Of a stretch of DNA of 37,329 nt, positions 2,520 to 37,301 are shown piece after piece. Origin of the DNA: Acidobacteriota bacterium. Lineage in GTDB: Bacteria > Acidobacteriota > Vicinamibacteria > Vicinamibacterales > UBA2999. The stretch covers positions 1 through 37,329 of the forward strand of contig SHUG01000014.1 of the NCBI GenBank assembly GCA_009694735.1, read 5' to 3'. The notes under the pieces were generated by a model. The model saw only the letters and a program-made list of their open reading frames with translations, was not told the DNA's origin and did not search any database. Within the stretch, counting starts at the first letter, position 1, and each line of letters starts with the position of its first letter. Position numbers and translations under genes: made by a program.

Positions 2520-2526
2520 GGGCAAA

Positions 2527-2538
2527 AGTATATATATT
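2527..2538. promoter_or_regulatory. Shared divergent -10 core (leaderless promoters)
   Basis: The 25 bp between the two divergent ATG codons (2519 minus, 2545 plus) contain one alternating AT tract. Read on the plus strand, TATATT (2533-2538) ends 6 nt before the ATG at 2545. Read on the minus strand, TATACT (2532-2527) ends 7 nt before the ATG at 2519. Normal -10 to +1 spacing would start both transcripts at or next to the start codon. No Shine-Dalgarno is present on either side. Any -35 contacts would have to lie inside the opposite gene's signal-peptide codons; no good -35 match was seen. Confidence 0.6.
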
Positions 2539-2544
2539 CTCGAC

Positions 2545-5500
2545 ATGCGCAAAGTCTTCTCTCTCGTGGCGGTGCTGATCTTGACGGCGACATGGCTAAA
2601 CGCGCGCGCCCAGGGACCGGTGGGTCTCGATCCGGGTTTATCCTCCGTAGCTTTAGCGAAGGAGGACCTGTTTCGCGAGCTCGAGTGGCGAAACATCGGC
2701 CCGCATCGCGCCAGCCGCACCAAGGCACTGGACGGCGTGCCGAGCCAGCCGCACACCTTCTACATCGGCGTCGTCAACGGCGGCGTCTGGAAGACCACCG
2801 ACGCCGGGCGCACCTGGTTGCCGATTTTTGATTCAGCGCCCACCGGCGCCATTGGCGCCCTGGCGGTGGCGCCCTCCAATCCAAGCGTGATTTACGTCGG
2901 CACCGGCGAGGCGCAGCAGCGCCCTGATCTCTCGACCGGCGACGGCATGTATAAGTCCACCGACGCCGGCAAGACGTGGACGCACCTCGGGCTGCGCGAC
3001 ACGCAGCAGATTGCGCAGGTCGTGGTCGACCCGACCAACGCCGAGCGCCTGTTTGTCGCGGCGCTCGGGCACCCCTACGGCGCCAATACCGAGCGCGGCA
3101 TTTTTCGGTCGGTCGACGGCGGCAAGACCTTCGAGCGGGTGCTCTACAAGGACGAGAACACGGGCGGCGTGGACGTGCAGATCGATCCATCTAGTCCCGA
3201 CGTCGTCTACGCGTCGCTGTGGCAGGCGCGGCAGGGCCCGTGGGAGAACGGTGACTTCCGGGGGCCAAACAGCGGGCTCTACAAGTCCGCGGATGGCGGC
3301 ACGACCTGGCGTCCGCTGACCAAGGGCCTGCCGACGTGGGAGGCGGACCGTCTTGGCCGCATCGGCATCGGCATTGCCCCCAGCCGGCCCTCGCGCATCT
3401 TCGCCATCGTCGAAGCGAGAACCCCGGGGGTCTTTCGGTCGGACGATTCGGGCGAGACGTGGGCGCGCGTGAACAGCGATCCGCGCGTGCTGGCGCGGCC
3501 GTCTGACGCCAGCGACGTTCGCGTGCACCCGACCAATCCCGACATCGTGATCGTGCCGACCGTCGTGACCTGGAAGTCCACCGACGGTGGTCGCACCTTC
3601 ACGGCCATTCGCGGGGCGCCCGGTGGCGACGACTATCAGAAGGCGTGGTTCAATCCGGCTAACCCGGACATCCTGGCGCTCACGTCGGATCAGGGCGCGG
3701 TGGTCACGCTGAACGGCGGCGAGTCGTGGAGCAGCTGGTACAACCAGGCGACGGCCGCCTTTTACCATGTGACGACCGACAATTCGTTCCCCTATCGCGT
3801 GTGCAGCGGTCAGCAGGAAAGCGGCTCGGCGTGCGTGCAGAGCCGTGGCGATCATGGGCAGATCACGTTCCGTGAATGGTCGCCGGTCGGCGTCGAGGAG
3901 TACGGTTACGTCGCGCCGGATCCGCTTGACCCAGACATTGTTTATGGCGGCAAGGTGTCGCGCTGGGACCGGCGAACGGGCCAGGTGCAACCAGTGGGGC
4001 CGAAGTTCGGACGCGATGCGAACTATCGCGTGGTGCGCACCATGCCCCTGCTGTTTTCACCACTCAACCCGCGCAAGCTGTACTACTCGTCGAACGTTCT
4101 GTGGCAGACCGTGAACGGCGGGCAGTCGTGGGATCAGATCAGTCCCGATCTGACGCGCAAGACCTGGGACATTCCAAAGAACGTCGGCATCTACGCCTCC
4201 GCGCCTGAAGCGCAGCCCACCCAGCGCGGCGTGATCTACACCATCGCGCCGTCGTACTCCGACGAGCGCACGATTTGGGTGGGGACTGACGATGGCCTGA
4301 TCCACATGACGCGCGATGGCGGCAAGGGCTGGCACGACGTGACGCCGCCGGGGCTGCCGCCGTGGTCCAAGGTGTCGATCATGGACGCTTCGCACTTCGA
4401 CGTGAACACGGCCTACGCGGCCGTCAACACCTTCCGGTTGGACGATCTGCGGCCGCACATTTATCGCACCCGTGACGGCGGCAAGAGCTGGACGCACATC
4501 ACGAGCGGCCTTCCCGACGGCGGCATCGTCAACGTCGTTCGCGAGGATCCCGTGCGCCGGGGCCTGCTGTTCGCCGGCACCGAGCAGGCGGTCTACGTGT
4601 CGTTTGACGATGGGGAGCATTGGCAGTCGCTGCGCAATAACATGCCGGCCACCTCGGTCCGCGACCTGGTGATCAAAGACGACGACCTGGTTGTGGGCAC
4701 GCATGGCCGTTCGTTCTACATCCTCGATGACATCACGCCGTTGCGGCAGGCGGCCGCCATCGCGGCCGGGCCTGAGGTGCACCTGTTTGCGCCGCAAGAC
4801 GCGTGGCGCTTCCGTTGGAACAAGAACACCGACACGCCACTGCCGCCAGATGAGCCGGCCGGCCAGAACCCTCCCGATGGCGCCGTGCTTCACTACTTCT
4901 TGAAGTCGGCGGCCCGGGGGCCGGTCACCCTCGAGATTCTCGATGCCCGGGGCGGCGTCGTGCGCCGCCACTCCAGCGCCGACCCGGCCGAGCCCCTCGT
5001 CGAGGGGCGCAACACGCCTGACTACTGGCTGCGTCCAGATCGGCCGTTGGCCGCGACCGCCGGCCTGCACCGCTTTGTCTGGGATGTGCATCATGAGCGT
5101 CCAGCCGTGACCGGCTTCAGCTATCCGATTTCCGCGACTCTCGCGAACACCCCGCGCACGCCGATGGGGTCGTGGGCGGTGCCTGGTAAGTACACGGTGC
5201 GACTGACCGTGGAAGGGAAGACGTGGACGCAGCCGCTGATGGTGAAGATGGACCCGCGCGTGCGGGCGACCGTGGCCGACATCAAGTTGCAGTACGACAT
5301 GTCGCGCGCCATCGATGCGTTGCTCGCCCGAAGTGCGACCGCGCTGCGTGAGGTGCGCGGTACGGCGACCAAGACCGCGGCGCTCACCGATCTCGAGCAG
5401 CGACTGTCGCGCGCGAGTGCGCCGCTCGGCCAGTTGTTCGGGGCGGTGGAGTCTGCCGATGCGGCGCCGACCGCGGTGGTGCGCGAAGCGTGGAAGGTGA

Positions 5501-5562
5501 CGGCGTCTGCGGTAGATGCGGCGCTGGCCGAGTGGGAAAAAATGAAGGCCGGGCTGCGGTAG
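2545..5562 (+). CDS. Secreted Asp-box (BNR/VPS10-sortilin-like) beta-propeller protein
   Basis: The product is a 1005-residue secreted protein. The ATG at 2545 starts a signal peptide (MRKVFSLVAVLILTATWLNA, then RAQ); an in-frame start further upstream would overlap the divergent gene. The body is a series of Asp-box repeats of the S-x-D-x-G-x-T-W type, for example KTTDAGRTW, KSTDAGKTW, RSVDGGKTF, KSADGGTTW and RSDDSGETW, with further copies to about residue 680. These form the sialidase/sortilin type of beta-propeller. The last 250 residues look like an immunoglobulin- or FlgD-like beta-sandwich followed by a helical tail. Such proteins are common and multi-copy in Acidobacteriota; their substrate is unknown and no glycosidase catalytic set was identified. 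The divergent S9 peptidase and shared promoter suggest a joint role in extracellular polymer use. Confidence 0.87.
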   Translation: MRKVFSLVAVLILTATWLNARAQGPVGLDPGLSSVALAKEDLFRELEWRNIGPHRASRTKALDGVPSQPHTFYIGVVNGGVWKTTDAGRTWLPIFDSAPTGAIGALAVAPSNPSVIYVGTGEAQQRPDLSTGDGMYKSTDAGKTWTHLGLRDTQQIAQVVVDPTNAERLFVAALGHPYGANTERGIFRSVDGGKTFERVLYKDENTGGVDVQIDPSSPDVVYASLWQARQGPWENGDFRGPNSGLYKSADGGTTWRPLTKGLPTWEADRLGRIGIGIAPSRPSRIFAIVEARTPGVFRSDDSGETWARVNSDPRVLARPSDASDVRVHPTNPDIVIVPTVVTWKSTDGGRTFTAIRGAPGGDDYQKAWFNPANPDILALTSDQGAVVTLNGGESWSSWYNQATAAFYHVTTDNSFPYRVCSGQQESGSACVQSRGDHGQITFREWSPVGVEEYGYVAPDPLDPDIVYGGKVSRWDRRTGQVQPVGPKFGRDANYRVVRTMPLLFSPLNPRKLYYSSNVLWQTVNGGQSWDQISPDLTRKTWDIPKNVGIYASAPEAQPTQRGVIYTIAPSYSDERTIWVGTDDGLIHMTRDGGKGWHDVTPPGLPPWSKVSIMDASHFDVNTAYAAVNTFRLDDLRPHIYRTRDGGKSWTHITSGLPDGGIVNVVREDPVRRGLLFAGTEQAVYVSFDDGEHWQSLRNNMPATSVRDLVIKDDDLVVGTHGRSFYILDDITPLRQAAAIAAGPEVHLFAPQDAWRFRWNKNTDTPLPPDEPAGQNPPDGAVLHYFLKSAARGPVTLEILDARGGVVRRHSSADPAEPLVEGRNTPDYWLRPDRPLAATAGLHRFVWDVHHERPAVTGFSYPISATLANTPRTPMGSWAVPGKYTVRLTVEGKTWTQPLMVKMDPRVRATVADIKLQYDMSRAIDALLARSATALREVRGTATKTAALTDLEQRLSRASAPLGQLFGAVESADAAPTAVVREAWKVTASAVDAALAEWEKMKAGLR

Positions 5563-5571
5563 CCCGGCCTT
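5536..5571 (-). terminator. Rho-independent terminator overlapping the Asp-box gene stop
   Basis: A perfect 11-bp stem, AAGGCCGGGCT (5545-5555) with AGCCCGGCCTT (5561-5571) and a 5-nt loop, contains the TAG stop of the plus-strand gene (5560-5562). Read on the minus strand the stem is followed by TCA and a run of six T (5541-5536), which is the classic layout for ending the convergent minus-strand gene at 5589. The plus-strand side has no T-run. Confidence 0.75.
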
Positions 5572-5588
5572 CGACGGGGAACTAGCGA

Positions 5589-6524
5589 CTAGCTGGTGCC
5601 AAACAGGATGCTGGCAATAAAGCAGAACTCTGAGTACGGCGGCATCGTCGCTTCACTGGCGACAATGCCGTTGCTCGCGCTGGTCGGTTTGGCGAACGGA
5701 AAGGTGGTCGGAGGGACCATTCGGCCGGTCGCTTCCGGGCACGTCGCCACAACTGGGGTGGCATCCACCAGGTAGTCGAACAGTACTTCCGAGTGCTCAA
5801 GCATTGTCGGCTCGCCCACGCCCTCGCCGGGTTGGGCGGCGCTGAACACCCACAAATCGGTCGCCTCCCCGGCAAGCGCCGTGAACGACTGGGCCTCAAC
5901 CGCACTCGTCAGTCGGATGGTGGTCGCGGCGCCACTTGTGTTGTGGAAGTCGACCGCGTCCGTCAGCTTCTGTTTGTAGGATCCGAACGCCCAGACTTTC
6001 CCCGCATCGGGGTGTCCGGATGAGTTCGTGATCTGCCCTCCGCGCAGTGAAACCGTGGCCGACACCCACTTCTCGACGTTGCCGCGGACACGCTTGCCCG
6101 GCGCGATGCGGCTCATCAAGGCCATTTCGGTGGCCTCGTTGGCCACGGATTCGCTAGCACCCGAGACGATGTCGAGTGCCGTGTTGTCGAGGTTTCGATA
6201 CACGAACTCTTCGGCTCGGGTGCCGATGAGTCTCGTGTCGAACGCGGCCGGAATCACACCCGGCGCCGCCGACATGCCCAGTGCCTTCGCGATCGCAGAG
6301 CCCTTGCGCGCCATCAGGAACGGCGTGTGGGTCAGGTGGTGGAAGGCGTGCTGTCCGGGGGTGGCGACCAGGAACGAGCGGTCAGCCCGCTCCATGAAGG
6401 TCATCATGCCGACGAATCGGACGTTGAGCTGTCCAGACGGGGTGGCGGCCAGCGACGGACGCGCAATGGTGGTACAGGCGGCGGCGCCGAGCGAAACTCG
6501 GCTGACAAACTGACGACGATTCAT
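5589..6524 (-). CDS. Secreted protein of unknown function with Tat-like signal
   Basis: I do not recognise this 311-residue protein. The ATG at 6524 is chosen because AGGAG lies 7 nt upstream and the peptide then starts MNRRQFVSRVSLGAAA, a twin-arginine-like signal (RRQFVS) with a short hydrophobic stretch and an ALA-type cleavage region near PSLAATP. The mature part is rich in Ala, Thr, Ser and Val and has few charged clusters, which is compatible with a beta-sandwich exported fold. No catalytic motif or metal-site pattern is visible. It is one of the few genes here with a strong Shine-Dalgarno sequence. It starts just downstream of the decayed sigma/CHAT locus on the same strand, so it may once have been the last gene of that operon. 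A rho-independent terminator follows it. Confidence 0.75.
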   Translation of the reverse strand: MNRRQFVSRVSLGAAACTTIARPSLAATPSGQLNVRFVGMMTFMERADRSFLVATPGQHAFHHLTHTPFLMARKGSAIAKALGMSAAPGVIPAAFDTRLIGTRAEEFVYRNLDNTALDIVSGASESVANEATEMALMSRIAPGKRVRGNVEKWVSATVSLRGGQITNSSGHPDAGKVWAFGSYKQKLTDAVDFHNTSGAATTIRLTSAVEAQSFTALAGEATDLWVFSAAQPGEGVGEPTMLEHSEVLFDYLVDATPVVATCPEATGRMVPPTTFPFAKPTSASNGIVASEATMPPYSEFCFIASILFGTS

Positions 6525-14536: not shown

Positions 14537-15587
14537 ATGACTTACGGCGGTTCTCGCCGTCCGGGTCTGGCCGCCCGTCTGCGTCGTGGTCAGCGCGCAC
14601 TCAAAAGCCGTCTCGAACGGACTGAGTCCGTCCTGGCCCTACTTCGCGCCGCACACGACACGCTCGACCCCGAAAGCATAGGCCGCCTCGTGGTGGCCCG
14701 TGCGGACGAGTGGTTCAAAGCGCCCGCGTGCGGGGTGTTCGCTGCCGACCTCGACGGACAAATCGTGGGCCTGTCGTCAAAGGGCATGGGGCCGGCGCTC
14801 ACGCCCGCGGCGATTGGGGTGGCGCGCTGGGTGTTGGCGCACGGGCGGGAACTGGCGTCGGCCGACCGCCGGAAAGACCCGAGGGCGCCCGGGGCCGCCG
14901 GTGCGGTACTGGCGTGGCCGCTGCGCTGCCGCGCGCAAACCGTCGGCGCTTTGGTAGTCGCGGAACGGCAGGGCGCGACGCAAGCGCCGCACCTGACGCC
15001 GGCCGTCGGCCAACTGCTGGGGGCCATGCTCGAGGGGCCGGCGCAGGCGCTTGATAACGCCTTGCGGCTGCGGCGGTCCGAAGCGTTGTCGGTGACCGAC
15101 GACCTGACCCAGCTCTACAACTCGCGGTACCTCAACCAGGTGCTGCGGCGCGAAGCCAAGCGAGCCTCGCGTTCGGGCCGTCCGCTCTCGCTGCTGTTTG
15201 GACCTTGACGGCTTCAAGGGCGTGAACGACAACCACGGGCACCAGGCGGGCAGCACGGCGCTGGTGGAAGCCGCGGCCGTGATTCGGCGGTGTGCGCGTG
15301 AGACCGACATGGTGGTGCGCTTCAGTGGCGACGAGTTTGCACTCATTCTGCCCGACACCGGGTCGGAGGGCGCCGCGGCGGTCGGCGATCGTGTCAGGGA
15401 ACGGCTGGCGGCTCATCCGTTCCTCGCGGGAAATGGGCTGAATCTACGGCTAACCGCGTCGGTGGGGGTGGCAACACTACCCGACGTGGCGGCTTCCGCT
15501 GAAGAGTTGGTGCGTGCGGCCGATATGGCCATGTACCAGGTAAAAGATTCGGGTAAAAACGGGGTTCGCATCGCCCAAGCTGAGTAG
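14537..15587 (+). pseudogene. GAF-GGDEF diguanylate cyclase gene with one frameshift
   Basis: The first frame (14537-15208) codes for a basic N-terminal helix, a GAF-like sensor domain (about residues 45-180) and the start of a GGDEF domain (SVTDDLTQLYNSRYLNQVL ... RPLSLLF), then hits a stop. The second frame resumes as DLDGFKGVNDNHGHQAG and continues to 15587. It holds the signature RFSGDEF and, five residues before SGDEF, an RETD inhibitory-site motif. Two bases are missing at about 15200 (TTT-GGAC where TTT-xxG-GAC is expected). Everything else in the cyclase is conserved, so the lesion is recent or an assembly error. If intact, it would make c-di-GMP, with the GAF part sensing a ligand. 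It lies just upstream of mreB on the same strand. Confidence 0.75.
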
Positions 15588-27164: not shown

Positions 27165-27911
27165 CTACAAGTAGCTCAAGGGATCGATTCCATACTCCGC
27201 CGGATCGAGCGGCGCCATCACGCTCTTCGCGCCTGGGCCTTCCGCCGGGGCCTCCCAGAGATTGAGGTCGTACGGCGTCTCGAGACGCTCGCGCGACGAA
27301 GTGGCGATCACGCGGACGCGGGGCTTGTACGGATCTGGCGCATGCACGGCCAGCACCACGGCGAGCGCGCCTGAGTCGAGGCGCACCAGGTTGCCTGGCG
27401 GGTAGATGCCGAGCAGCTGCGTGAAGCGCCGCACCAGGTGCTGGTCGAACTGCTGGCCGTCGTTACGCTTCATCACCTCGAGAATGCGATCCGACGGGAA
27501 CGCCTGCTGATAGGCGCGTTGCGAGCGCATGGCGTCGTAAACATCGGCGATGCCGCACAGCATGGTGCCCAGGTTGAGCCCGGCCCGCGAGACGCCAAAC
27601 GGGTAGCCCGTGCCATCGAGGCACAGGTGATGCTCGAACGCAATCACCGGCGCCACCGCGGGCATCTCCGGCGTGCGCCGCAGGATCTCGGCGCCGTCCA
27701 CCACGTGCAGGCGCATGATCGAGAACTCGGCGTCGGTCAACTTGTCAGGCTTGTTCAGGATTTCGGTGGGCGTGCGCACCTTGCCGATGTCGTGCATCAA
27801 CGCGGCGAGACCCAGCTCGCGCAGTATTGAGCCATCCATGCCGAGCGCGCGCGCCTGCGACATGGTGAGAATTGAGACGTTCACCATGTGTGTGAAGGTG
27901 TAGTTGTCGTC
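27165..27911 (-). pseudogene. HD-GYP domain protein, second copy, N terminus lost to an IS element
   Basis: Homology to the HD-GYP protein encoded at 30161-31513 starts abruptly at DDNYTFTHMVN and runs to the common end (GIDPLSYL against GIDPLAYL). About 200 residues that come before this point in the first copy are absent. Immediately upstream an in-frame TAA and IS4-type DNA occur. The HD-GYP core is kept: MHDIGK, HVVDGAEIL, EHHLCLDGTGYP and DVYDAMRSQRAY. Translation could restart at an ATG at 27887 and give about 240 residues, which begins inside the first helix of the domain. Reduced or no activity is likely. Its GYP loop (DGTGYP) is nearer to consensus than that of the intact copy. Confidence 0.8.
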
Positions 27912-27912
27912 A

Positions 27913-28120
27913 GTAGTGTCCGGTTAATTTGAGGCGCACCAGCTGGAAAGCCAATATTGACACGGGTTTCGGGGTGACGCTGGGTGTCTCCGACTTGAAT
28001 ACAAAATCGCCACTTGCGCTAGCGTTCGGGTGTTCATCAACCCGGAGCCACTATGTATCTCGGCAAGACGCTGTTCGCGCAAGTCATGGATTTCCTGCCG
28101 TGGAAGACCTTCCATCGCAT
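27913..28120 (+). mobile_element. IS4-family insertion sequence remnant (left end)
   Basis: Plus-strand DNA from about 27913 (GTAGTGTCCGGTTAATTT, a probable terminal inverted repeat) leads, after a 140-bp AT-richer leader, to an ATG at 28053. The frame there reads MYLGKTLFAQVMDFLPWKTF, then HRI. This is the well-known N terminus of IS4-family transposases with a DUF4372-type start. After 23 codons it stops matching and becomes antisense HEAT-gene sequence. The rest of the transposase and the right end are gone. The remnant lies between the cut ends of a HEAT gene and an HD-GYP gene and is on the opposite strand. No target duplication can be recognised. Confidence 0.82.
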
Positions 28121-30109
28121 CAATGACTCAATCGTCGAGAGGTATTCGCCTTCGAGCGACCCGGTGTAGCCGCTGTGCGTGAGCAAATGGACGAACAGCG
28201 GCGCGGCCCGCTCGTCGCGCAGCGACCCGAGCGCCTGGAGAATGGCGTCGCGGGTGTGCGGCTTGCCGTTCTTCAACGCGTGCTCGAGCGCCTCGTAGGC
28301 CTCGTTCGTGCCGATTTGCACAATCGCCCGCAGCGCTTCCCGCTGCACTTGCGGCTCCCCATCGTCCAGCAATCCGCGCAGATCGGGCAAGGCCGCCTCA
28401 CCGCCCAGCGCGCGCAGCAGGTCGACCGCGGCGCGGCGCACGGCCGGATTGGGCGAGGTGCGCAGCTCGTCGGCGTACTGGCGCGTGGCGGTGCCGAAGC
28501 CAATCAGGATGTCGCGCAGCCGGCGCACCGTGCGGGCGTTGTCCTCGGCGGCGAGCGCATTGGCCAGCGGTTCAACCAGCGACGGTCCGATGGTGCGGCA
28601 AATCCGTGCCGCGAGGCCCACTTCACTGTCGGTCGCTTGCCGCAGGAACAACGCGAGGTGCCGCACGAGAGAACCCTCGACCAGCCGCGTCACACCTGCG
28701 GCGGCGTATGCCGCCGTGGCCGAGTCGGTCTTCTTCGCCGCGCTGACGACGGCGTCGACCAACTGGGCGGCCAGGGCGAGATCGCCGACCAGCACCAGCT
28801 GGTCGATGCTGCCGACTGCCAGGTCCAGCACGCCCGCCCACGCCTCGGTGCGTGCCTCGATGGTCAGCAAATCCAGCAGCAGCCGCTGATCCAGGCCGCG
28901 CACTTCTTCGCCGCTGACGGTCGACACCCACGCGCGGATGCGCACCGGCGGATCGTCGCCGATCGTGTCCACCGCGGTCGCCTGGGTGCGTGCCGACGTC
29001 AGCTCGCGGGCGTAATCGTCCGACACGAACTGCGAATCGGAATCGGTGGTCAGCATCTGCGTGGAGCTGTTCCAGACGCTCTCGAACTGGGGATCCTGGC
29101 CGAACATGGCCGCGGCCTGCTCGGTGGCGGCCGCGAGGATGCTCTGCTGGCGATCCGGATCCGGCACCAGCGTCTGGAACGCGGCGGCCAGGCGATCGCT
29201 CGCGCCGCGATCCTTGACGACGTTCTCGACGAGAAACTTCGTCAGCATCTCGTCGGTTAGGCGGGCTTGCAGTTCGCTGCCCAGGTCCATGCGGGGGGCG
29301 GTGGTGCCCGGTGGCTGCGGCGGCGGCGGATCGATGATCAGCGTGAGCAGCATCTCCGGCGACATCTGCGCGGCGGCGCCGGCCATGCGGTTCAGCACCG
29401 CATCCAGTTCGCCGGGCTGGCGATCGGCGGCGTAGTTCGCCAGGCCGTGCATCAGCTCCAGCAGTGACTTGCGCTGCTGAACCGAATCGTCGCCGCTGGC
29501 GCGGCCGTGCGCCTGCAGCCGCTCGGCAAACTGAGCCAGCCGCTCCGAGTCTTTGGCCATCTCGAGCATGCCGGCCATGCCCGGCTCGAGCTCGCCCGAC
29601 TCGTCCTTCTCCTCGCTGAGCGTCGCCAGAATGCGGTCCCACGACGCTGACTCGCCGCGGCCGGCGCGCTCGCGCAGGACCTCGGCGTAGTCGATCTCCT
29701 TGAGCGTGATCGACTTGTTGCCGATCGCCGTCCACGCGTGGGCGAGGCCGCCAATGGCCCGCACGTCTTCCGGTGTTTTGGCCAGCAGCATCAGGAACGC
29801 ATGCCACTCGTCGGGCTCAAGCGTGCTGAGCAGCGTGAACTCGCCGATCAACTGCTGGTGGAGCAGCGTTGCCAGTTCGGTCGCCGCGGGATCGGATTTG
29901 GTGAATCCCCGCCCGCCCACCAGCAACGCATCCGGCAGCACGGTGATCGGTAACGGTCCGTTGTAAACCGCCTGCTTGCCTGCCTCGGTGATGCGCGCGA
30001 GCGCCGCCTGAATGGTCGGGTGGCTCGGCGGATACATCGAGACCAGCCGGGTGGCCGCCTTGCAGGCCTTGGCGAATTCCGACAGCCGTCCGGCCGTGTC
30101 GGGCGACAA
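28037..30109 (-). CDS. HEAT-repeat protein B with N-terminal YPPxHP module, 3' end replaced by IS DNA
   Basis: The open frame has 690 residues. The first 110 hold the module shared with the two upstream neighbours: MYPPSHP at residues 25-31, then PITVLPDALLVGG and LLHQQLIGEFTLLSTL. A long helical middle follows, and HEAT repeats occupy about 550-655 (NPAVRRAAVDLLRALGGEAALPDLRGLL; DGEPQVQREALRAIVQIG). From about residue 663 the codons are antisense to the IS4 remnant, so the native end is lost. The frame has no ATG or GTG; TTG at 30109 is the only usual start. An ATG at 30141 lies in another frame and would join if the C5 run near 30130 were C6, giving a natural MAPPPTAQPDS start. No enzyme motif is seen; a scaffold role is likely. 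Confidence 0.72.
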   Translation of the reverse strand: MSPDTAGRLSEFAKACKAATRLVSMYPPSHPTIQAALARITEAGKQAVYNGPLPITVLPDALLVGGRGFTKSDPAATELATLLHQQLIGEFTLLSTLEPDEWHAFLMLLAKTPEDVRAIGGLAHAWTAIGNKSITLKEIDYAEVLRERAGRGESASWDRILATLSEEKDESGELEPGMAGMLEMAKDSERLAQFAERLQAHGRASGDDSVQQRKSLLELMHGLANYAADRQPGELDAVLNRMAGAAAQMSPEMLLTLIIDPPPPQPPGTTAPRMDLGSELQARLTDEMLTKFLVENVVKDRGASDRLAAAFQTLVPDPDRQQSILAAATEQAAAMFGQDPQFESVWNSSTQMLTTDSDSQFVSDDYARELTSARTQATAVDTIGDDPPVRIRAWVSTVSGEEVRGLDQRLLLDLLTIEARTEAWAGVLDLAVGSIDQLVLVGDLALAAQLVDAVVSAAKKTDSATAAYAAAGVTRLVEGSLVRHLALFLRQATDSEVGLAARICRTIGPSLVEPLANALAAEDNARTVRRLRDILIGFGTATRQYADELRTSPNPAVRRAAVDLLRALGGEAALPDLRGLLDDGEPQVQREALRAIVQIGTNEAYEALEHALKNGKPHTRDAILQALGSLRDERAAPLFVHLLTHSGYTGSLEGEYLSTIESLMRWKVFHGRKSMTCANSVLPRYIVAPG

Positions 30110-30160
30110 CGAGTCGGGCTGAGCGGTGGGGGCGGTGCCATGGGATGAGCTAACCCGGAA

Positions 30161-31513
30161 TTATAGGTAAGCCAGCGGGTCGATGCCTACCAGGGTCCCG
30201 TCCACTGCTTCGACAACCGCGCGGGTGAAATTCCCGCGCGCATCCCGGTCCCAGGTGTTGGTCAGGAGCGGCGTCTCGAGTAGCGCCCCCTTCTCGTCGA
30301 GCACCAGCTTCACCTGGGGCCGGAACGGATCCTCCGGATGCGTCTGCGTGACCACGCCGACTTCCTCGGTGCTGAGCCGCACCACCGTGCCGACCGGAAA
30401 CAGCCCCATCAGGTTCACGAAGCGGCGGAGCAACGAGGGATGGAACGCGGTGCCGTCCTGCTGGCCCATGATGTGCTTGATGCGATCGGTCGCCAGCCCG
30501 GCGCGATACGCGCGGTTGCTGCGCAGCGCGTCGAACACGTCGACGATGCTCACCACCATGGTGCACAGGTTCAGGGTGCGGGCGCCGATGTTCTCAGGGT
30601 AGCCGCTCAGGTCTTGTTTCAAGTGGTGCTCGAAGGCCACCACCGGCGCCAGCGCGGGCGTCTCGGGCGTGCGGCGCAGGAGGTGGGCGCCGTTCACCAC
30701 GTGCAGCTTCATGATGGTGAACTCTTCGGTGGTCAGCTTGTCGGGCTTGTTCAGGATCTCGAGCGGGGTATGGACCTTGCCGATGTCGTGCATCAGCGCG
30801 GCGAAGCCAAACTCGCGCAGCATCGGCCCTTCGAGATCGAGCGATCGCGCCATCGCCATCGACAGCGCCGCGACGTTCACCATGTGCGTGAAGGTGTAGT
30901 TGTCGTGGCGCTTGAGGGCGGTGAGGGCGAGCAACGACGTGCGGTCCTGGTAGACCAGCTTCGACAGGCTGTCGATAATGCCGCGGGCGTCGGCCGGGTC
31001 GGGTTGCTCGCCGGCCTTGGCCGCCGTCCAGATCGTTTCCGCGGTCGAGACCGCCTTCGTGTACATCTGCTTCGCCGCCGCCAGGCCGACTTCTTCGTCG
31101 TTCTCCTCCTCGGGGACGACCTTCGACACCTGGATGCGACGGATGCCGCGCGACGTGAGGCGGTCGTTGACGCCGGTTCTCGACGTGCGGTCCGCCAGCT
31201 CGTCCATCAGGGCGCGCACGTCCGACACCTCGACGCCGCGCGCGAAGGTGATCTTCTCAACCTTGCGATCACGCATGTCGCGCAGCAGGCCCGCCAACGA
31301 ACCCGATCCGCGCGGCAACCGGAAGTCGTTCAGCACCACGTCGTCTTCCAGGAAGGCGACGATCACGGTGGGGGAGTCGACGAGCACCGGTGCGAGGATG
31401 CCGTGCAGCGCGGACGCCGAGCGATCGACCAGCGGATGCGTGGGCGCGTAGAGTTCCGAGGCGCGCACCGCGGCGCCGAGTCGCCGGACGATGTCTTCCT
31501 GTGGAGTGATCAT
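30161..31513 (-). CDS. HD-GYP domain phosphodiesterase with N-terminal YxPxHP module
   Basis: The product is 450 residues. The ATG at 31513 overlaps the HEAT-A stop (ATGA), which decides the start. Residues 5-110 carry the shared module: LYAPTHP (21-27), VIVAFLEDDVVLND (50-63) and LLRDMRDRKVEKITFARGV. A helical linker follows to 200. The HD-GYP domain then gives H210 (NYTFTHMVN), H242-D243 (MHDIGK), H271 (LHVVNGA), H296-H297 (EHHLKQDLSGYP) and D-V-F-D-A-L. Such domains hydrolyse c-di-GMP. The usual HHE is HHL here, and DG before GYP is DLS, so activity may be weak or altered. It is coupled to HEAT-A and followed, 51 bp on, by HEAT-B. Confidence 0.88.
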   Translation of the reverse strand: MITPQEDIVRRLGAAVRASELYAPTHPLVDRSASALHGILAPVLVDSPTVIVAFLEDDVVLNDFRLPRGSGSLAGLLRDMRDRKVEKITFARGVEVSDVRALMDELADRTSRTGVNDRLTSRGIRRIQVSKVVPEEENDEEVGLAAAKQMYTKAVSTAETIWTAAKAGEQPDPADARGIIDSLSKLVYQDRTSLLALTALKRHDNYTFTHMVNVAALSMAMARSLDLEGPMLREFGFAALMHDIGKVHTPLEILNKPDKLTTEEFTIMKLHVVNGAHLLRRTPETPALAPVVAFEHHLKQDLSGYPENIGARTLNLCTMVVSIVDVFDALRSNRAYRAGLATDRIKHIMGQQDGTAFHPSLLRRFVNLMGLFPVGTVVRLSTEEVGVVTQTHPEDPFRPQVKLVLDEKGALLETPLLTNTWDRDARGNFTRAVVEAVDGTLVGIDPLAYL

Positions 31514-33729
31514 GCCGGTGGCCGGGTCGCCGTGGCGGCCGCCAGCCGCCGCAGGAAGAAGTCGCCGCTCTTCGCCAGGTCGGCCAGCGTCTGCTTCGCC
31601 TTCGGCGTGCCGATTCGCGAGAGCGTGCGGAGCGACACCTCGCGCAGTTGCGTGGTCTTGCCCCAGGCCAGCCATCGCCGCCGTCTCGCCGTGGCCGCAA
31701 TCTGCGCCAGCGCGCGGTCGTCGCGGAACGATGCCAGCGCGTCGAGGGTATCGAGCACCATCGACAGGTCATCACCGAACGGGTCGCTGTCGTCGAGAAT
31801 GCGCCCCAGCATCGGCACCACGCGCGGATCCTTGAGGCCGACCAGCGCGGCAATCACGGCGGCGTGCGCCTCGCCCGCGGTGGCCTTGAGCACCATCTGC
31901 ATGGCCCGCGCGGCGGCTGGGTCATCGATTCGCGCGAGCGACGACACCGCCGCGTGCATGACGCGCACGTCCGTGCGCCGCAGCAAGGCTTGCAGCGGCG
32001 GCACCGCGGCCGGGGTGCCGATCTGTCCGAGCAGCTTGGCGAGTTCGCGCTGCACGAACCAACGCTGGTCATCAATTGCCGCGGCCAGGCCGGGAATGGC
32101 CGCGGTGCCGAGCTTGCCGAGCAGGTGCGACGCGCGCTCCGTGGCCACGCCGCCCTCCTCTTTCCGGTACGCGCCGAGCAGCGCGGGCACCGCGGGCGCA
32201 CCGATGCTGCGCACGACGGTCTCGAAATTGGCGAGTTCATCCCTGGACAAATCGGCGAGTCCCAGCGCGGCTTCGGCCAGGGCGCTGGACCCGCCGAGGC
32301 CATCGAGCGCGCGGCGACAGGCATCGGGCGCCAGCGACGGCTGGCGGGTGATCGCCGCGCCCAGCTCGGTCACGACCGGCACCACATCCGCGAAGGCCCC
32401 GGCGAGCAGGAGTTCTTCAACGAAGGCCGCCATGTCGCGCGCGGTCTCGGCCATCCGCTCGGCTTGCGACTCGTTGCGCAGCAGGTCGATCAGCAACTGG
32501 CCTGACAACCGGCGGACGCTTTCGTGCCCGAGCGTCTCGAGCCACTCGGCCATTTCCGGCGGCAGGCCGCGGGCCGCCAGGTCGGCGGCGCGCTCGCCGG
32601 CCGATTCCATCGACTCCCGGTACTCGCCCGACACGTACGTGGACTCGTCGTACCTGAGCAGCAACTCGTCGAGCGACTGCCGAATGTCGTCGATCGGCCG
32701 CTTGCTGCCGAAGTCGCGTTCCGAGATCAACCGCTTGGCCAGGGTCAGCACGCGCCGCTTGCGCTCGGCGTCGGGCGCCAGGGTGTCGAGCACCTTCGCC
32801 AGCCGGCTGGTCGGGTGGCCCGGTGATGACAGGGCGCGCGCCAGCAGCATGGCGACTTGCTGATCGTCGAAGGCCTGCTTGAGCGCGCCGACAATCTGCA
32901 CCCCTTCGCCCGCGCTCTCTTCCTGCAGCATCAGTTCGAGCGCGGTCGACGAGTCAAGATTCGACGCCGCCAACGCCAGCGACTGGATGACCTCCTGCAC
33001 GCGCTCCGGCTCGAGGGCGGCCACGGTCTTGGCGATGTGGCGATACACCGCGAGCACGGTGGCCGCCTGCGTGGTGACCAGTGGCGAACCATCGGGCGTG
33101 GTGAACGGTTCCTTGCTGTCTTTCGCCAGCTCACCGATGGCGCCGACGTCGCGCGAGATGTCGAGCAGGCGCTGTTGCTCGTCGGCGGTAAACGTCGAGC
33201 GGCCCATGATGATGAACTGGACGATCGCCTTCCAGGTGGAGTCGCGGCGTGCCGGCCCCTCGTCCATCTCGCGCTCGAGAAGTTCCTGGTAGTCGATCTG
33301 CTCGATCAGAATCGCCGCCTGGTCTTCGGCCTCCCAGATGGCGGCCGGCCCGCCGCGCGCGCGCCGCGTGCCGCGATCGAGCGACAGCACCGCCAGCAAC
33401 GACCGGATGACGGCCTCGGCCGGCGCCATCAGCACCGTGACCTGCAGGATGTCGCGATCGTGCAGCAGCTCGGCGCATTCAACGACCGCCAGGTCGGTGG
33501 AATCGAGGGCGATGCCGTCGAGCAGGAGCTGATGCGGCGTGACGGCGAGCTGCATCATGCCGCCCGACGCGGCCTCGGCGGCCGCCGTCGCCAGGCGCTC
33601 CACCGCCAGCACGACGGCCGGATGCTCAGGCGGATAGAAGCCCCAACTGCGCAGCGCGATGGTGATCGCGCGCGCCAGGTTGACTGCGCTTCGGGTGATC
33701 TCGGCGGCCGACGCCGCTCGCTGGGCCAT
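31510..33729 (-). CDS. HEAT-repeat protein A with N-terminal YPPxHP module
   Basis: The product is 739 residues. The ATG at 33729 is chosen because the sequence upstream belongs to the divergent promoter. Residues 15-125 hold the shared module (FYPPEHP at 31-37; QLAVTPHQLLLDG; LLHDRDILQVTVLM). The centre is helical with EYR/YVSGEY-like words that also occur in HEAT-B (for example RYDESTYVSGEY against SDSQFVSDDYAREL). The C-terminal 250 residues are HEAT/PBS-lyase-like repeats (APAVPALLGAYRKEE; TAAIPGLAAAIDDQRWFVQRELAKLLGQIG; TPAAVPPLQALL). No catalytic motif or membrane segment is seen. It overlaps the HD-GYP gene by 4 nt and is divergent from the nucleoside phosphorylase with a 31-bp gap. 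A scaffold or regulator for HD-GYP is inferred. Confidence 0.8.
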   Translation of the reverse strand: MAQRAASAAEITRSAVNLARAITIALRSWGFYPPEHPAVVLAVERLATAAAEAASGGMMQLAVTPHQLLLDGIALDSTDLAVVECAELLHDRDILQVTVLMAPAEAVIRSLLAVLSLDRGTRRARGGPAAIWEAEDQAAILIEQIDYQELLEREMDEGPARRDSTWKAIVQFIIMGRSTFTADEQQRLLDISRDVGAIGELAKDSKEPFTTPDGSPLVTTQAATVLAVYRHIAKTVAALEPERVQEVIQSLALAASNLDSSTALELMLQEESAGEGVQIVGALKQAFDDQQVAMLLARALSSPGHPTSRLAKVLDTLAPDAERKRRVLTLAKRLISERDFGSKRPIDDIRQSLDELLLRYDESTYVSGEYRESMESAGERAADLAARGLPPEMAEWLETLGHESVRRLSGQLLIDLLRNESQAERMAETARDMAAFVEELLLAGAFADVVPVVTELGAAITRQPSLAPDACRRALDGLGGSSALAEAALGLADLSRDELANFETVVRSIGAPAVPALLGAYRKEEGGVATERASHLLGKLGTAAIPGLAAAIDDQRWFVQRELAKLLGQIGTPAAVPPLQALLRRTDVRVMHAAVSSLARIDDPAAARAMQMVLKATAGEAHAAVIAALVGLKDPRVVPMLGRILDDSDPFGDDLSMVLDTLDALASFRDDRALAQIAATARRRRWLAWGKTTQLREVSLRTLSRIGTPKAKQTLADLAKSGDFFLRRLAAATATRPPA

Positions 33730-33760: not shown

Positions 33761-35098
33761 ATGCGAGCCGTTGACATCATTCGTGCCAAGCGGGACGGCG
33801 ACGCACTCTCGCGCGAGGCCATCGAGGCCTTTGTGACCGGCGTGACCGACGGCTCGTGGCCCGACTACCAGGCCTCGGCGCTGCTCATGGCCATTGTCCT
33901 CAAGGGCATGAACGCCGTCGAGACGGCCTGGCTCACCGACGCCATGGCCCGATCGGGCGACCGCGTCGACCTGAGCCACATTCCCGGCATCAAGGTCGGC
34001 AAGCACAGCACGGGCGGGGTGGGCGACAAGGTGTCGATCGTGCTCGCGCCGCTGGCGGCGTCCTGCGGGGTCGTGGTCCCGAAAATATCCGGCCGCGGCC
34101 TGGGTCACACGGGCGGCACCCTCGACAAGCTGGAGAGCATTCCCGGCTTCCGGGTGGCGCTGTCGCTCGATGAGTACAAAAAGATGCTCGCCGAAGTCGG
34201 CTGCTGCCTGATCGGCCAGACCGCCACCATTGCCCCGGCCGACAAGACCCTCTACGCGCTGCGCGACGTCACCGGCACCATCGAAAGCCTGCCGTTGATC
34301 GCGTCGTCGGTGATGAGCAAGAAGCTCGCCGAAGGGAGCGATGCCCTGGTGCTGGACGTCAAGTGCGGGCGCGGCGCGTTCATGCAGCGCCCGCCGGAGG
34401 CGCGGGCGCTCGCGCGCGCGCTCGTCTCGATCGGCACCGCAGCCGGCGTGCGGACCGAGGCGTTCATCACGCGCATGGATGTGCCGCTGGGCCGCGCGGT
34501 GGGCAACGCGCTTGAGATCGCGGAGTGCATCGACCTGCTGAAGGGCGAGGGACCGGCGGATCTGACCGAAGTGATCGTCAGGTTGGGCACCAGGATGGTT
34601 CGCCTGGCCGAGCAGGCGGCGAGCGATGACCAGGCGACCGCCAAAGTGCGCCACGCGCTCGCCTCCGGCGCGGCACTGGCGAAACTGCGCGAGATGATTG
34701 CCGGGCAAGGCGGCGATGTCTCGGTGGTCGACGACCCCAGCCGGCTGCCATCGGCATCGCTGACGCGCATGATCACCGCGCCGCGCGCGGGTTTTGTCAC
34801 CGCGCTCGATGCGCTGCTCGTGGGGCGCGCCGCCGTCGCCTTGGGTGCCGGGCGCGACAAGAAGGGCGACGCGGTGGACCTGTCGGCCGGCATCCTGTTG
34901 CCCAAGAAGCCAGGTGATGCCGTGAAGTCGGGCGAGCCCGTGATGGAGCTTCGCTACAACGATCCGGCACGGCTCGACGCAGCGGTCGCCTTGGCGACGC
35001 AGGCGATGGTGGTGGGCGACCTGGCGCCCGCGCCACAGCCACTCGTGCTGGGGTGGGTACACGACAGCGGCGAGACGATGTTCGTCGCCGGAATGTAG
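33761..35098 (+). CDS. deoA: Pyrimidine-nucleoside (thymidine) phosphorylase
   Basis: The product is 445 residues. It splits thymidine, and possibly uridine, with phosphate into base and (deoxy)ribose-1-phosphate in the cytoplasm. The start MRAVDIIRAKRDGDALS is the family's usual N terminus; the frame upstream is antisense to HEAT-A. The phosphate site KHSTGGVGDK and the family signature SGRGLGHTGGTLDKLESI are both present, as are the KxSGxMSKK-like ASSVMSKKLAEG and the C-terminal domain with GRAAVALGAGRDKKGDAVD. Length is normal. The start has no ribosome site and follows TATACT by 11 nt. CNT transporter and purine-nucleoside phosphorylase genes follow on the same strand, so this is a nucleoside-salvage set. 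The last codons are part of a 31-bp tandem duplication. Pdp is an alternative name. Confidence 0.95.
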   Translation: MRAVDIIRAKRDGDALSREAIEAFVTGVTDGSWPDYQASALLMAIVLKGMNAVETAWLTDAMARSGDRVDLSHIPGIKVGKHSTGGVGDKVSIVLAPLAASCGVVVPKISGRGLGHTGGTLDKLESIPGFRVALSLDEYKKMLAEVGCCLIGQTATIAPADKTLYALRDVTGTIESLPLIASSVMSKKLAEGSDALVLDVKCGRGAFMQRPPEARALARALVSIGTAAGVRTEAFITRMDVPLGRAVGNALEIAECIDLLKGEGPADLTEVIVRLGTRMVRLAEQAASDDQATAKVRHALASGAALAKLREMIAGQGGDVSVVDDPSRLPSASLTRMITAPRAGFVTALDALLVGRAAVALGAGRDKKGDAVDLSAGILLPKKPGDAVKSGEPVMELRYNDPARLDAAVALATQAMVVGDLAPAPQPLVLGWVHDSGETMFVAGM

Positions 35099-35148
35099 AG
35101 TCCGGCTTTAGTTCGTTGCCGGAATGTAGAGTCCGGCTTTAGCCGGAC
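35081..35148. repeat. 31-bp tandem duplication across the deoA stop, plus palindrome
   Basis: Bases 35081-35111 and 35112-35142 are the same 31-bp unit with one C/T change. The first copy contains the last four codons and stop of deoA. The second copy runs into GTCCGGCTTTAGCCGGAC (35131-35148), an 18-nt palindrome that differs by one base from that at 23337-23354. The hairpin may act as an mRNA end or processing site between deoA and the transporter gene. Confidence 0.75.
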
Positions 35149-35181
35149 TTCTGAAGAGAGCACGCGGATCGTGAGGGACCT

Positions 35182-36450
35182 GTGGGAGTGTTGAGCACGC
35201 TGCAACCGCTGATTGGGCTGGTCGGCATCCTCGGGCTGGCGTATGCGCTGTCGACCAACCGGCGTGCGATCAGTCCGCGCGTGGTGGGCTGGGGCCTCAG
35301 CCTCCAGGTCTTGTTCGCGCTGATCGTCCTCAAGACCAGCGTCGGGCAGCAAGTGTTCACGGTGCTCGGCGACAAAATGCGGCAACTGCTCGAGTTCTCG
35401 GTGGTGGGCTCGGGGTTTGTCTTTGGTCCGCTCGGTGATGCCTCGGTGTGGCGCCGCGTCATGATCGGCGCGCTCGGTGAGGAGGGCGCGCGCTACGGCG
35501 TGGTGTTCGCGTTCCAGATTCTGCCGACTATCATCTTCATCGCGGCGTTGTTCGCGATCCTGTACTACCTCGGCGTGATGCAGGTGATCGTCCGGTTGCT
35601 CGCCGTCGTCATGAACCGGGTGATGGGCGCGAGCGGCGCCGAATCCCTGAACGTGGCGGCCAGCATTTTCATGGGCCAGACCGAGGCGCCCCTGACGATT
35701 CGCCCCTTCCTTGCCAAGATGACGCAGTCGGAACTGATGACGGTGATGACCTCCGGCATGGCCCACATTTCCGGCGGCATCATGGCCGCCTACATTGCGT
35801 TCGGCATCGACGCCAAGCACCTGCTGACCGCCGTGATCATGACCGCGCCGGGCACGCTGATGATGGCCAAGATGTTCGTGCCCGAGACCGAGACCCCGGA
35901 GACGCGCGGCACGGTGAAGCTTGAAGTCGTCAACGAAGACGTCAACATCATCGACGCCGCCGGCCGCGGCACCGCCGAAGGCCTGCACCTCGCCATGAAC
36001 GTCGGCGCGATGTTGATCTCCTTCGTCGCCCTGATTGCCCTCGTCAACGCGCTGCTCGGCGCCGCCGGTGGCTGGTTCGGGCTCGAAGGGTTTTCGCTGC
36101 AGACCATCTTCGGCTGGGTGTTCGCCCCCGTGGCCTGGAGCCTGGGTGTGCCCTGGAAGGACGCCGCGACCGTCGGCAACCTGCTGGGCACGCGCATGGT
36201 ACTCAACGAGTTCATCGCCTTTGCGCAGTTGGGCGCCATGAAGGACGCGCTCGACCCGCGGTCGTTCACCATCGCGACGTTCGCGCTGTGCGGCTTCGCC
36301 AACTTTGCCTCGATCGGCATGCAAATCGGCGGCATCGGCGCGCTCGCGCCGACCCGGCGCGGGGACCTGGCACGGCTCGGCCTGCGCGCCATGCTGGCCG
36401 GCACCCTTGCCAACTTCCTGACCGCCATCATCGTGGGCTTCTTGTTGTGA
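35182..36450 (+). CDS. nupC: Concentrative nucleoside transporter (CNT/NupC family)
   Basis: The product is a 422-residue inner-membrane symporter that brings nucleosides into the cell with Na+ or H+. Family words are clear: GSGFVFG near residue 73, SIFMGQTEAPLTIRPF near 167, MTSGMAHISGGIMAAYIAFG near 190 and GNLLGTRMVLNEFIAF near 333. About nine or ten hydrophobic segments are visible, with a soluble loop at about 235-270 (PETETPETRGTVKLEVVNEDVN). The GTG at 35182 is preferred, as GAGG lies 5 nt upstream; another GTG is two codons later. It feeds the two phosphorylases encoded on either side, and its stop overlaps the next start (GTGA). Confidence 0.93.
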   Translation: MGVLSTLQPLIGLVGILGLAYALSTNRRAISPRVVGWGLSLQVLFALIVLKTSVGQQVFTVLGDKMRQLLEFSVVGSGFVFGPLGDASVWRRVMIGALGEEGARYGVVFAFQILPTIIFIAALFAILYYLGVMQVIVRLLAVVMNRVMGASGAESLNVAASIFMGQTEAPLTIRPFLAKMTQSELMTVMTSGMAHISGGIMAAYIAFGIDAKHLLTAVIMTAPGTLMMAKMFVPETETPETRGTVKLEVVNEDVNIIDAAGRGTAEGLHLAMNVGAMLISFVALIALVNALLGAAGGWFGLEGFSLQTIFGWVFAPVAWSLGVPWKDAATVGNLLGTRMVLNEFIAFAQLGAMKDALDPRSFTIATFALCGFANFASIGMQIGGIGALAPTRRGDLARLGLRAMLAGTLANFLTAIIVGFLL

Positions 36451-37301
36451 GCGTTTCAGGGATCGGGGATCAGGGATCAGGGATCGGGGACTTCGATCGC
36501 GCGACCGAGGCCGCCGAGTGGCTGCGTGGCCACGGCTGCGGCGGCGCCGACGTGGCGGTGGTGCTCGGCTCCGGGCTGGGCGATTTCGCGGATCATCTCG
36601 GCGACTCGTTTACGATTCAGTATTCCGACCTTCCGCATTGGCCGGCCGCGCGCGTGATCGGTCACGCCGGTAAGCTGGTGGGTGGCACCTTACGCGGGAA
36701 GCAGGTGCTGGCGCTGTCGGGTCGCGTGCATGCCTACGAAGGCCACGACATGAAGACCGTCACCTTTGCCATGCGCGCCATCGGACGGCTCGGCGTGCCG
36801 CGCGTGATTCTCACCAACGCGGCCGGCGGCATCTCACCCAACTGCTCGCGCGGCGCCCTGATGGTGATCGACGATCACATCAACCTGATGGGCGACAACC
36901 CCCTCGTCGGGCCCAACGACGACCGCTTCGGTCTCCGCTTTCCCGACATGAGCCTCGTGTATTCGCCGCGGTTGCGGGCGATCGCCGATGAGGTGGCGAA
37001 CGAGCAGGGCGCCCCGATTCAGCACGGTGTCTACGTCGCCGTGTTGGGGCCCAGCTACGAGACGCCTGCCGAAATTCGCGCGTTCCGCACCCTCGGCGCC
37101 GATGCCGTTGGCATGTCGACCGCGCCCGAGGCGATCGTCGCCCGGCACATGGGCATGGAGGTCCTCGGCATCTCGTGCATTACCAATGCCGCCGCCGGCG
37201 TCTTCCCCGAACCGTTACATCACGAAGAAGTGATGGAAACCGCGCGCCAGGTGAAAGGGCAGTTCATTGCCCTGCTGGAGGGGATCATTGGCCGCCTCTG
37301 A
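36447..37301 (+). CDS. punA: Purine-nucleoside phosphorylase, trimeric type
   Basis: The product is 284 residues from the GTG at 36447, which overlaps the transporter stop by 4 nt. It splits inosine or guanosine with phosphate. Motifs are complete: VVLGSGLGDFADHL (phosphate Ser), LSGRVHAYEGHD, ILTNAAGGISP, HINLMGDNPL, GVYVAVLGPSYETPAEI (purine-site Glu region), GMSTAPEAIVARH and ISCITNAAAG (base-binding Asn). The first 14 residues (VSVSGIGDQGSGIGDF) are encoded by a GGGATC-type simple repeat and look like added sequence, not part of the fold. A downstream start is not obvious. The enzyme completes the salvage set with deoA and nupC. The symbol could also be deoD-like in some catalogues, but the trimeric type fits punA. 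Confidence 0.92.
   Translation: MSVSGIGDQGSGIGDFDRATEAAEWLRGHGCGGADVAVVLGSGLGDFADHLGDSFTIQYSDLPHWPAARVIGHAGKLVGGTLRGKQVLALSGRVHAYEGHDMKTVTFAMRAIGRLGVPRVILTNAAGGISPNCSRGALMVIDDHINLMGDNPLVGPNDDRFGLRFPDMSLVYSPRLRAIADEVANEQGAPIQHGVYVAVLGPSYETPAEIRAFRTLGADAVGMSTAPEAIVARHMGMEVLGISCITNAAAGVFPEPLHHEEVMETARQVKGQFIALLEGIIGRL
36457..36490 (+). repeat. GGGATCR simple repeat at the start of punA
   Basis: The bases read as five near-repeats of GGGATCA/GGGATCGG in direct order. They lie inside the first codons of the purine-nucleoside phosphorylase gene, just after the transporter stop. The 7-nt-like period means each unit is read in a shifting frame, giving GIGDQGSGIGD. Confidence 0.65.

Follow-up and report, generated by a model that had tools for sequence, protein, structure and literature searches.

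Among the enzymes of c-di-GMP, the HD-GYP proteins are the class that is less well understood, and the way in which they are coupled to an output is often unknown. Members of the binuclear Y/F subfamily of these proteins are expected to hydrolyze their substrate in one step (PMC8177086). A search of the literature on HD-GYP proteins in combination with HEAT repeats, PBS lyase and Acidobacteria, which leaves out most subscription journals, yielded no description of an HD-GYP protein paired with a HEAT-repeat protein. Within that range the result agrees with a preliminary description of the locus studied here, in which the HEAT partner and a domain common to both proteins had been called undescribed. 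What is new here is a variant of HD-GYP signaling in which the HEAT partner is conserved and the common domain has no name; the HD-GYP and HEAT families themselves are known.

The window analyzed is a DNA stretch of 37,329 nucleotides from an Acidobacteriota bacterium of the order Vicinamibacterales. On its minus strand, between positions 33729 and 27165, genes for HEAT and HD-GYP proteins alternate in the order HEAT-A, HD-GYP-A, HEAT-B, HD-GYP-B (Table 1). This gene order had been recognized in the preliminary description, as had the exact positions of the three N-terminal motifs and the ATGA overlap of the first two genes; the assignment of all four genes to 28037-33729 had to be changed, HD-GYP-B (27887-27165) being located outside that segment. 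The HEAT_2 scores of HEAT-A and HEAT-B were 59.8 and 93.7 bits, respectively (Pfam cut-off 27.7), and the HD_5 scores of HD-GYP-A and HD-GYP-B were 63.7 and 84.9 bits (Pfam cut-off 27.2).

HEAT-A is composed of an N-terminal domain (N-domain; residues about 8-145) and a part that is all-helical from residue 147 on in the AF2 model and carries HEAT repeats at about 400-739. Its C-terminal solenoid was matched by alphaRep (Z 13.7 over 406-737) and by the karyopherin Kap121p (Z 13.1). Identity of the HEAT proteins with the bilin lyase CpcE or with NblB was rejected, as the scores reached 29.6 and 31 bits versus NCBIfam equivalog cut-offs of 330 and 300, respectively. In HD-GYP-A, the N-domain is followed by a helical linker, the HD-GYP domain (about 200-375) and a C-terminal tail. 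A search for RNA elements between 27000 and 35300 found none. Divergently oriented genes at 33761-37301 (plus strand) code for a pyrimidine nucleoside phosphorylase, a Na+ nucleoside transporter and a likely purine nucleoside phosphorylase.

Table 1. Features of the HEAT/HD-GYP locus, with positions in the window.
Feature	Position	Strand	Evidence and remarks
HEAT-A, 739 aa	31510..33729	-	Pfam HEAT_2 3.3e-16; AF2 pLDDT 87.8; solenoid matches 399-739
N-domain of HEAT-A, residues 8-145, FYPPEHP 31-37	33295..33708	-	hhalign; AF2 helices/strands; profile match
HD-GYP-A, 450 aa, HHLKQDLSGYP	30161..31513	-	Pfam HD_5 2.4e-17; 40/40 orthologues with the catalytic residues
N-domain of HD-GYP-A, residues 1-132, LYAPTHP 21-27	31118..31513	-	hhalign; AF2
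ATGA shared by the stop codon of HEAT-A and the start codon of HD-GYP-A	31510..31513	-	-4 is the commonest spacing in relatives
HEAT-B, N-domain and HEAT repeats, TTG start	28037..30109	-	Pfam HEAT_2 8.7e-27
N-domain of HEAT-B, MYPPSHP 25-31	29752..30109	-	hhalign; profile match 9e-37
Insertion-sequence piece, terminal GTCAGTAGTGTCCGGTTAATTTGAG and transposase-like frame start MYLGKTLFAQVMDFLPWKTFHRI	27909..28122	+	72% copy at own contig C26:179-392; local matches 83-89%
HD-GYP-B, truncated, HHLCLDGTGYP; HD-GYP domain kept, N-domain and linker absent here	27165..27887	-	Pfam HD_5 7.2e-24

The relationship of the N-terminal parts was determined with four orthologue families of 33-36 sequences each, of which the N-terminal parts alone were compared by hhalign. 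Comparisons of HEAT with HD-GYP proteins resulted in probabilities of 97-98% and in E values of 5e-13 (HEAT-A/HD-GYP-A; probability 97.9%), 4e-11 (HEAT-A/HD-GYP-B), 5e-11 (HEAT-B/HD-GYP-A) and 6e-11 (HEAT-B/HD-GYP-B). Within each protein type the E values were 8e-35 (HEAT-A/HEAT-B) and 6e-39 (HD-GYP-A/HD-GYP-B). All controls, i.e. 16 comparisons with segments from elsewhere in these proteins and five with shuffled columns, gave E values above 0.02 and probabilities below 2.2%. The match between the profiles is significant and the controls are clean, which confirms the N-terminal domain that had been proposed for HEAT-A, HD-GYP-A and HEAT-B. It is also carried by the full-length HD-GYP-B proteins of relatives, and its size is nearer 120-145 residues than the 110 residues originally given.

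Structure prediction for the N-terminal regions of HEAT-A and HD-GYP-A led to the same conclusion. In the AF2 models, with pLDDT values mostly near or above 90 in this part, helices (H) and strands (E) follow each other in the same order, HEAT-A having one extra short helix (HEAT-A: H8-31 H37-55 E59-63 E68-70 H80-91 E94-99 H105-115 H119-124 H128-134 E140-144; HD-GYP-A: H4-21 H27-46 E49-55 E58-61 H71-82 E87-91 H96-107 H115-121 E127-130). Pfam contained nothing credible for the first ~150 residues, no Pfam or NCBIfam family matched more than 1/30 of the N-domain members, and no sequence relative was found in the PDB. The N-domain could not be named after any Pfam, NCBIfam or PDB entry, given that no match was consistent. 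A profile search of this genome detected the domain in HEAT-A, HD-GYP-A and HEAT-B only, and a search of plasmids found none at E 0.01.

Matches to the N-domain profile were present in 103 of 297 Acidobacteriota genomes. All four genes occurred in the same order in 25 of 40 loci (L056-L095), most of the others being cut by contig ends. Some Vicinamibacterales kept pair B alone (L048-L052), and more distant members of the class had a single pair (L053, L054). Among the loci opened in other Acidobacteriota families, an N-domain HEAT gene was directly followed on the same strand by an N-domain HD-GYP gene in 17 of 20, and the N-domain HEAT gene stood alone in three.

A pair with a short gene overlap was also found in L096 ('uncultured proteobacterium'), and the N-domain was detected in 98 of 238 genomes of the phylum to which L096 belongs, a sample without overlap with that of the Acidobacteriota. 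Forty loci of this second phylum were opened, 20 of which had been picked for the length of the open frame without regard to pairing. With L096 included, they yielded 29 pairs, each with the HEAT gene first and its partner on the same strand. When genes from the two phyla were combined in one set, Pfam recognized HEAT_2 in 27 of the 31 genes in first position and HD_5 in 27 of the 32 in second position. Among the proteins and loci examined, and apart from L160 and L173, which could not be read, solo N-domain proteins were of the N-domain-HEAT type, and no full-length N-domain HD-GYP protein was seen that had no HEAT neighbor. L173 contains two adjacent N-domain genes (1649-3079 and 3120-5654, both minus strand) in which Pfam recognizes neither HEAT nor HD and which are perhaps a far-diverged pair. 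The N-domain HD protein encoded at L174:3705-6506 (plus strand) has a C-terminal extension of ~540 residues to which Pfam finds no match.

The genes of a pair usually touch or overlap. Exactly -4 was the spacing of 49 of 93 pairs in Vicinamibacterales, where some genomes were entered twice and counts are not independent; outside this order it was again the commonest spacing (9/19 and 9/29 pairs). Genomes with the HEAT gene only (L123-L125, plus several of the second phylum) indicate that the HEAT protein can work without a paired HD-GYP protein. In accordance with the expectation that the genes are neighbors in related genomes, the conserved unit is the pair, an N-domain-HEAT gene directly upstream of an N-domain-HD-GYP gene, and this is strongly supported. 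One might argue that the adjacency merely reflects a housekeeping tie to the divergent nucleoside-salvage genes, and that the pair is no unit of its own, as 47 of 49 Vicinamibacterales loci have the gene for pyrimidine nucleoside phosphorylase in divergent orientation to the module and 43 have that for the nucleoside transporter. However, the phosphorylase gene is absent beside the pair in other Acidobacteriota families and in the second phylum, and the pair persists there. With these neighbors conserved only within Vicinamibacterales, such a link is largely refuted and is considered very improbable.

In one metagenome-assembled genome, a single frame of 1042 aa (L140:4910-8035, plus strand) comprises an N-domain, a HEAT-like part, another N-domain and a degenerate HD domain. 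The middle part of this fusion matched the HEAT gene of L152, a locus in which the pair is of the usual kind (E 2.5e-21). In phylogenetic trees of the HEAT and of the HD-GYP proteins, A and B were sister clades with 100% bootstrap support, and the groupings in the outgroup were largely the same. These mirrored trees imply that in Vicinamibacterales both genes of the pair were duplicated together. Correlation of evolutionary distances was 0.86 and 0.79 for the cognate pairs versus 0.59-0.73 for non-cognate HEAT/HD combinations (two neighbor genes controlled); since the distances are non-independent, the correlation is suggestive only.

The fusion, the duplication as a unit, the mirrored trees and the overlapping genes lend indirect support to the idea, put forward in the preliminary description, of one signaling complex. 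The sequences show the homology of the domain, the pairing and order of the genes, their joint duplication, a fusion and the conserved residues; a physical complex, docking through the N-domain, the substrate and the output are inferred. It appears moderately probable that the N-domains join a HEAT scaffold to a cyclic-dinucleotide phosphodiesterase, or to a receptor where the active site has decayed, and that the two proteins make up one signaling unit. The N-domain might instead be a sensory or ligand-binding input, by which both proteins read one cue without any need for contact. N-terminal input domains are common among HD-GYP proteins, an example being the GAF domain of PmGH (PMC4159591), and GAF domains predominated among the weak Foldseek matches of the HD-GYP-A 1-205 model (linker included), which were far from significant (best E 0.47, PelD GAF); with a second aligner, the matched rows (VIA) fell mainly on the helices of the linker (133-199). 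Against a sensory input speaks the absence of a clear ligand-site pattern, as Y32 and H/N36 (HEAT-A numbering) were the only strongly conserved polar positions in 127 N-domain sequences from both phyla. Short of proof, this scarcity makes an enzymatic N-domain less likely than one that is structural or serves for docking. Moreover, association explains the fusion and the duplication as a unit more easily, and we regard the sensory function as improbable.

Active-site positions of the HD-GYP proteins were mapped on PmGH (PMC4159591). Equivalents of D183, H189, H221, D222, K225, H250, H276, H277, GYP, D305 and D308 were present in 40/40 orthologues of HD-GYP-A and in 37/37 of HD-GYP-B, or in 36/36 at sites absent from one truncated copy. 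No A protein, and no B protein that has the site, lacks any of the metal ligands (H...HD...H...HH...D) or the GYP triad. At the position of E185, all A and B proteins having the site carry Tyr and not the Glu/Asp of the trinuclear subfamily, which places both in the binuclear Y/F subfamily (defined in PMC4159591). The HD-GYP proteins of Vicinamibacterales are predicted to be active binuclear phosphodiesterases. The motif HHL[KR]QDLSGYP was present in 40/40 A proteins, and the usual DG[TS]GYP type was found almost throughout in B. Proteins with GGDEF and PilZ domains are encoded in the same genome, indicating that a cyclic-dinucleotide network is present. A gene for a GAF-GGDEF diguanylate cyclase (14537-15587) is distributed over two frames, with matches that end at 15199 and resume at 15198; the split near 15200 is either a real frameshift or an assembly error.

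The A and B proteins differ at the site of PmGH K317, a residue that contacts a guanine (PMC4159591), with R in 40/40 A and Q in 37/37 B proteins. Given this difference at a base-contact position, they may prefer different nucleotides, and a substrate other than c-di-GMP, e.g. 3',3'-cGAMP, could be envisaged at least for pair B. However, the K317A exchange hardly changes the activity of PmGH (PMC4159591), and, according to a review, the glutamine it describes is not conserved in other cGAMP-hydrolyzing HD-GYPs. A different substrate is therefore considered rather unlikely.

In the HD-GYP proteins examined from other Acidobacteriota, most ligands are intact. Roughly one in three HD-GYP partners of the second phylum has lost most metal ligands and is still encoded beside the HEAT gene. 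Pairing is thus more constant than catalysis, and catalysis is not the common function. The label of c-di-GMP enzyme is consistent with the intact residues in Vicinamibacterales but does not hold as a universal activity, given the many ligand-poor partners of the second phylum. It could be argued from these partners that the HD-GYP protein mainly assists the HEAT protein without catalysis, by binding a nucleotide or as a structural element, with activity as an ancestral trait retained in some lineages. Several ligands are lost in L151, L153-L155, L158, L166, L167, L169, L170 and L174, yet the genes are paired, and Bd1817 is a known inactive HD-GYP protein (PMC4159591, PMC8177086). By contrast, the retention of all catalytic and GYP residues in the A proteins of Vicinamibacterales, and in the B proteins with the site, implies selection for activity, so that a mainly non-catalytic function seems unlikely.

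In the genome studied here, pair B is damaged. An insertion-sequence scar (27909-28122) stands where HEAT-B should end and where about 200 residues at the start of HD-GYP-B are missing; the junction may be an assembly join and not a genuine deletion. In addition, the ancestral ATG of HEAT-B (30141) is out of frame by one base, so that decay of pair B is probably under way here. The closest relative (L036/L056, a genome from a Lake Baikal metagenome) has lost pair B by a different deletion with a short remnant left. At L036:7457-7672 (minus strand), this independent loss has fused HEAT-B, at QLIGEFTLL, with the last part of HD-GYP-B (DPLVYL). Scar and frame defect here and the separate deletion in the closest relative suggest that pair B is being lost in the lineage. 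At L055:6701-7963 (minus strand), an in-frame product of 421 aa combines the N-terminal part of HEAT-B with the C-terminal half of the HD-GYP domain of HD-GYP-B, and another deletion in pair B is the apparent cause.

For the two-protein unit favored above, the following course of events can be envisaged. A HEAT-repeat scaffold in the cytosol would be made from the first gene and an HD-GYP protein from the second, and the two would associate through their common N-domains. The HD-GYP protein would turn over or sense a cyclic dinucleotide, and the HEAT solenoid might bring in, present or capture a target or relay the output, with HEAT binding controlled by the state of the enzyme or the bound nucleotide. 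HD-GYP proteins without metal ligands, as found in many genomes of the second phylum, could be receptors or purely structural partners in the same architecture. More broadly, we propose, tentatively and with slightly less than even confidence, an undescribed cyclic-dinucleotide module of at least two phyla in which a HEAT and an HD-GYP protein are held together by a new domain and which in some lineages has turned from enzyme to receptor as its active site decayed. Being a conserved partner that shares the N-domain, the HEAT protein is a concrete candidate for the link between HD-GYP proteins and their output, and intact and apparently dead HD-GYPs within one architecture offer a model for the change from enzyme to receptor. 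If this holds true, the Acidobacteriota gain a defined signaling system, together with a domain that is missing from curated libraries.

Among known systems, the HD-GYP phosphodiesterases of the Y/F subfamily, with PmGH (4mcw) and Bd1817 (3tm8) as solved relatives, share the HD-GYP domain with the A and B proteins, which keep the GYP triad and all metal ligands except at the E185 position, where they have the Tyr of that subfamily. Unlike proteins of the PmGH/Bd1817 type, those described here possess an N-domain without a Pfam, NCBIfam or PDB sequence relative and, in nearly all cases, have a HEAT gene directly upstream; moreover, the A paralogues read DLSGYP in place of the usual DG.GYP. The PmxA-type 3',3'-cGAMP HD-GYP of Myxococcus xanthus belongs to the HD-GYP family as well and is set apart from the present pair by description only, in that the sections available on it mention no HEAT partner. 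HEAT_2 and PBS-lyase-type HEAT proteins (PF13646, PF03130) are like the HEAT proteins of the pair in their C-terminal solenoid, which scored above both Pfam cut-offs. What sets the HEAT protein described here apart from them is the N-domain, an additional all-helical region (about 160-400) and its genetic link to an HD-GYP protein.
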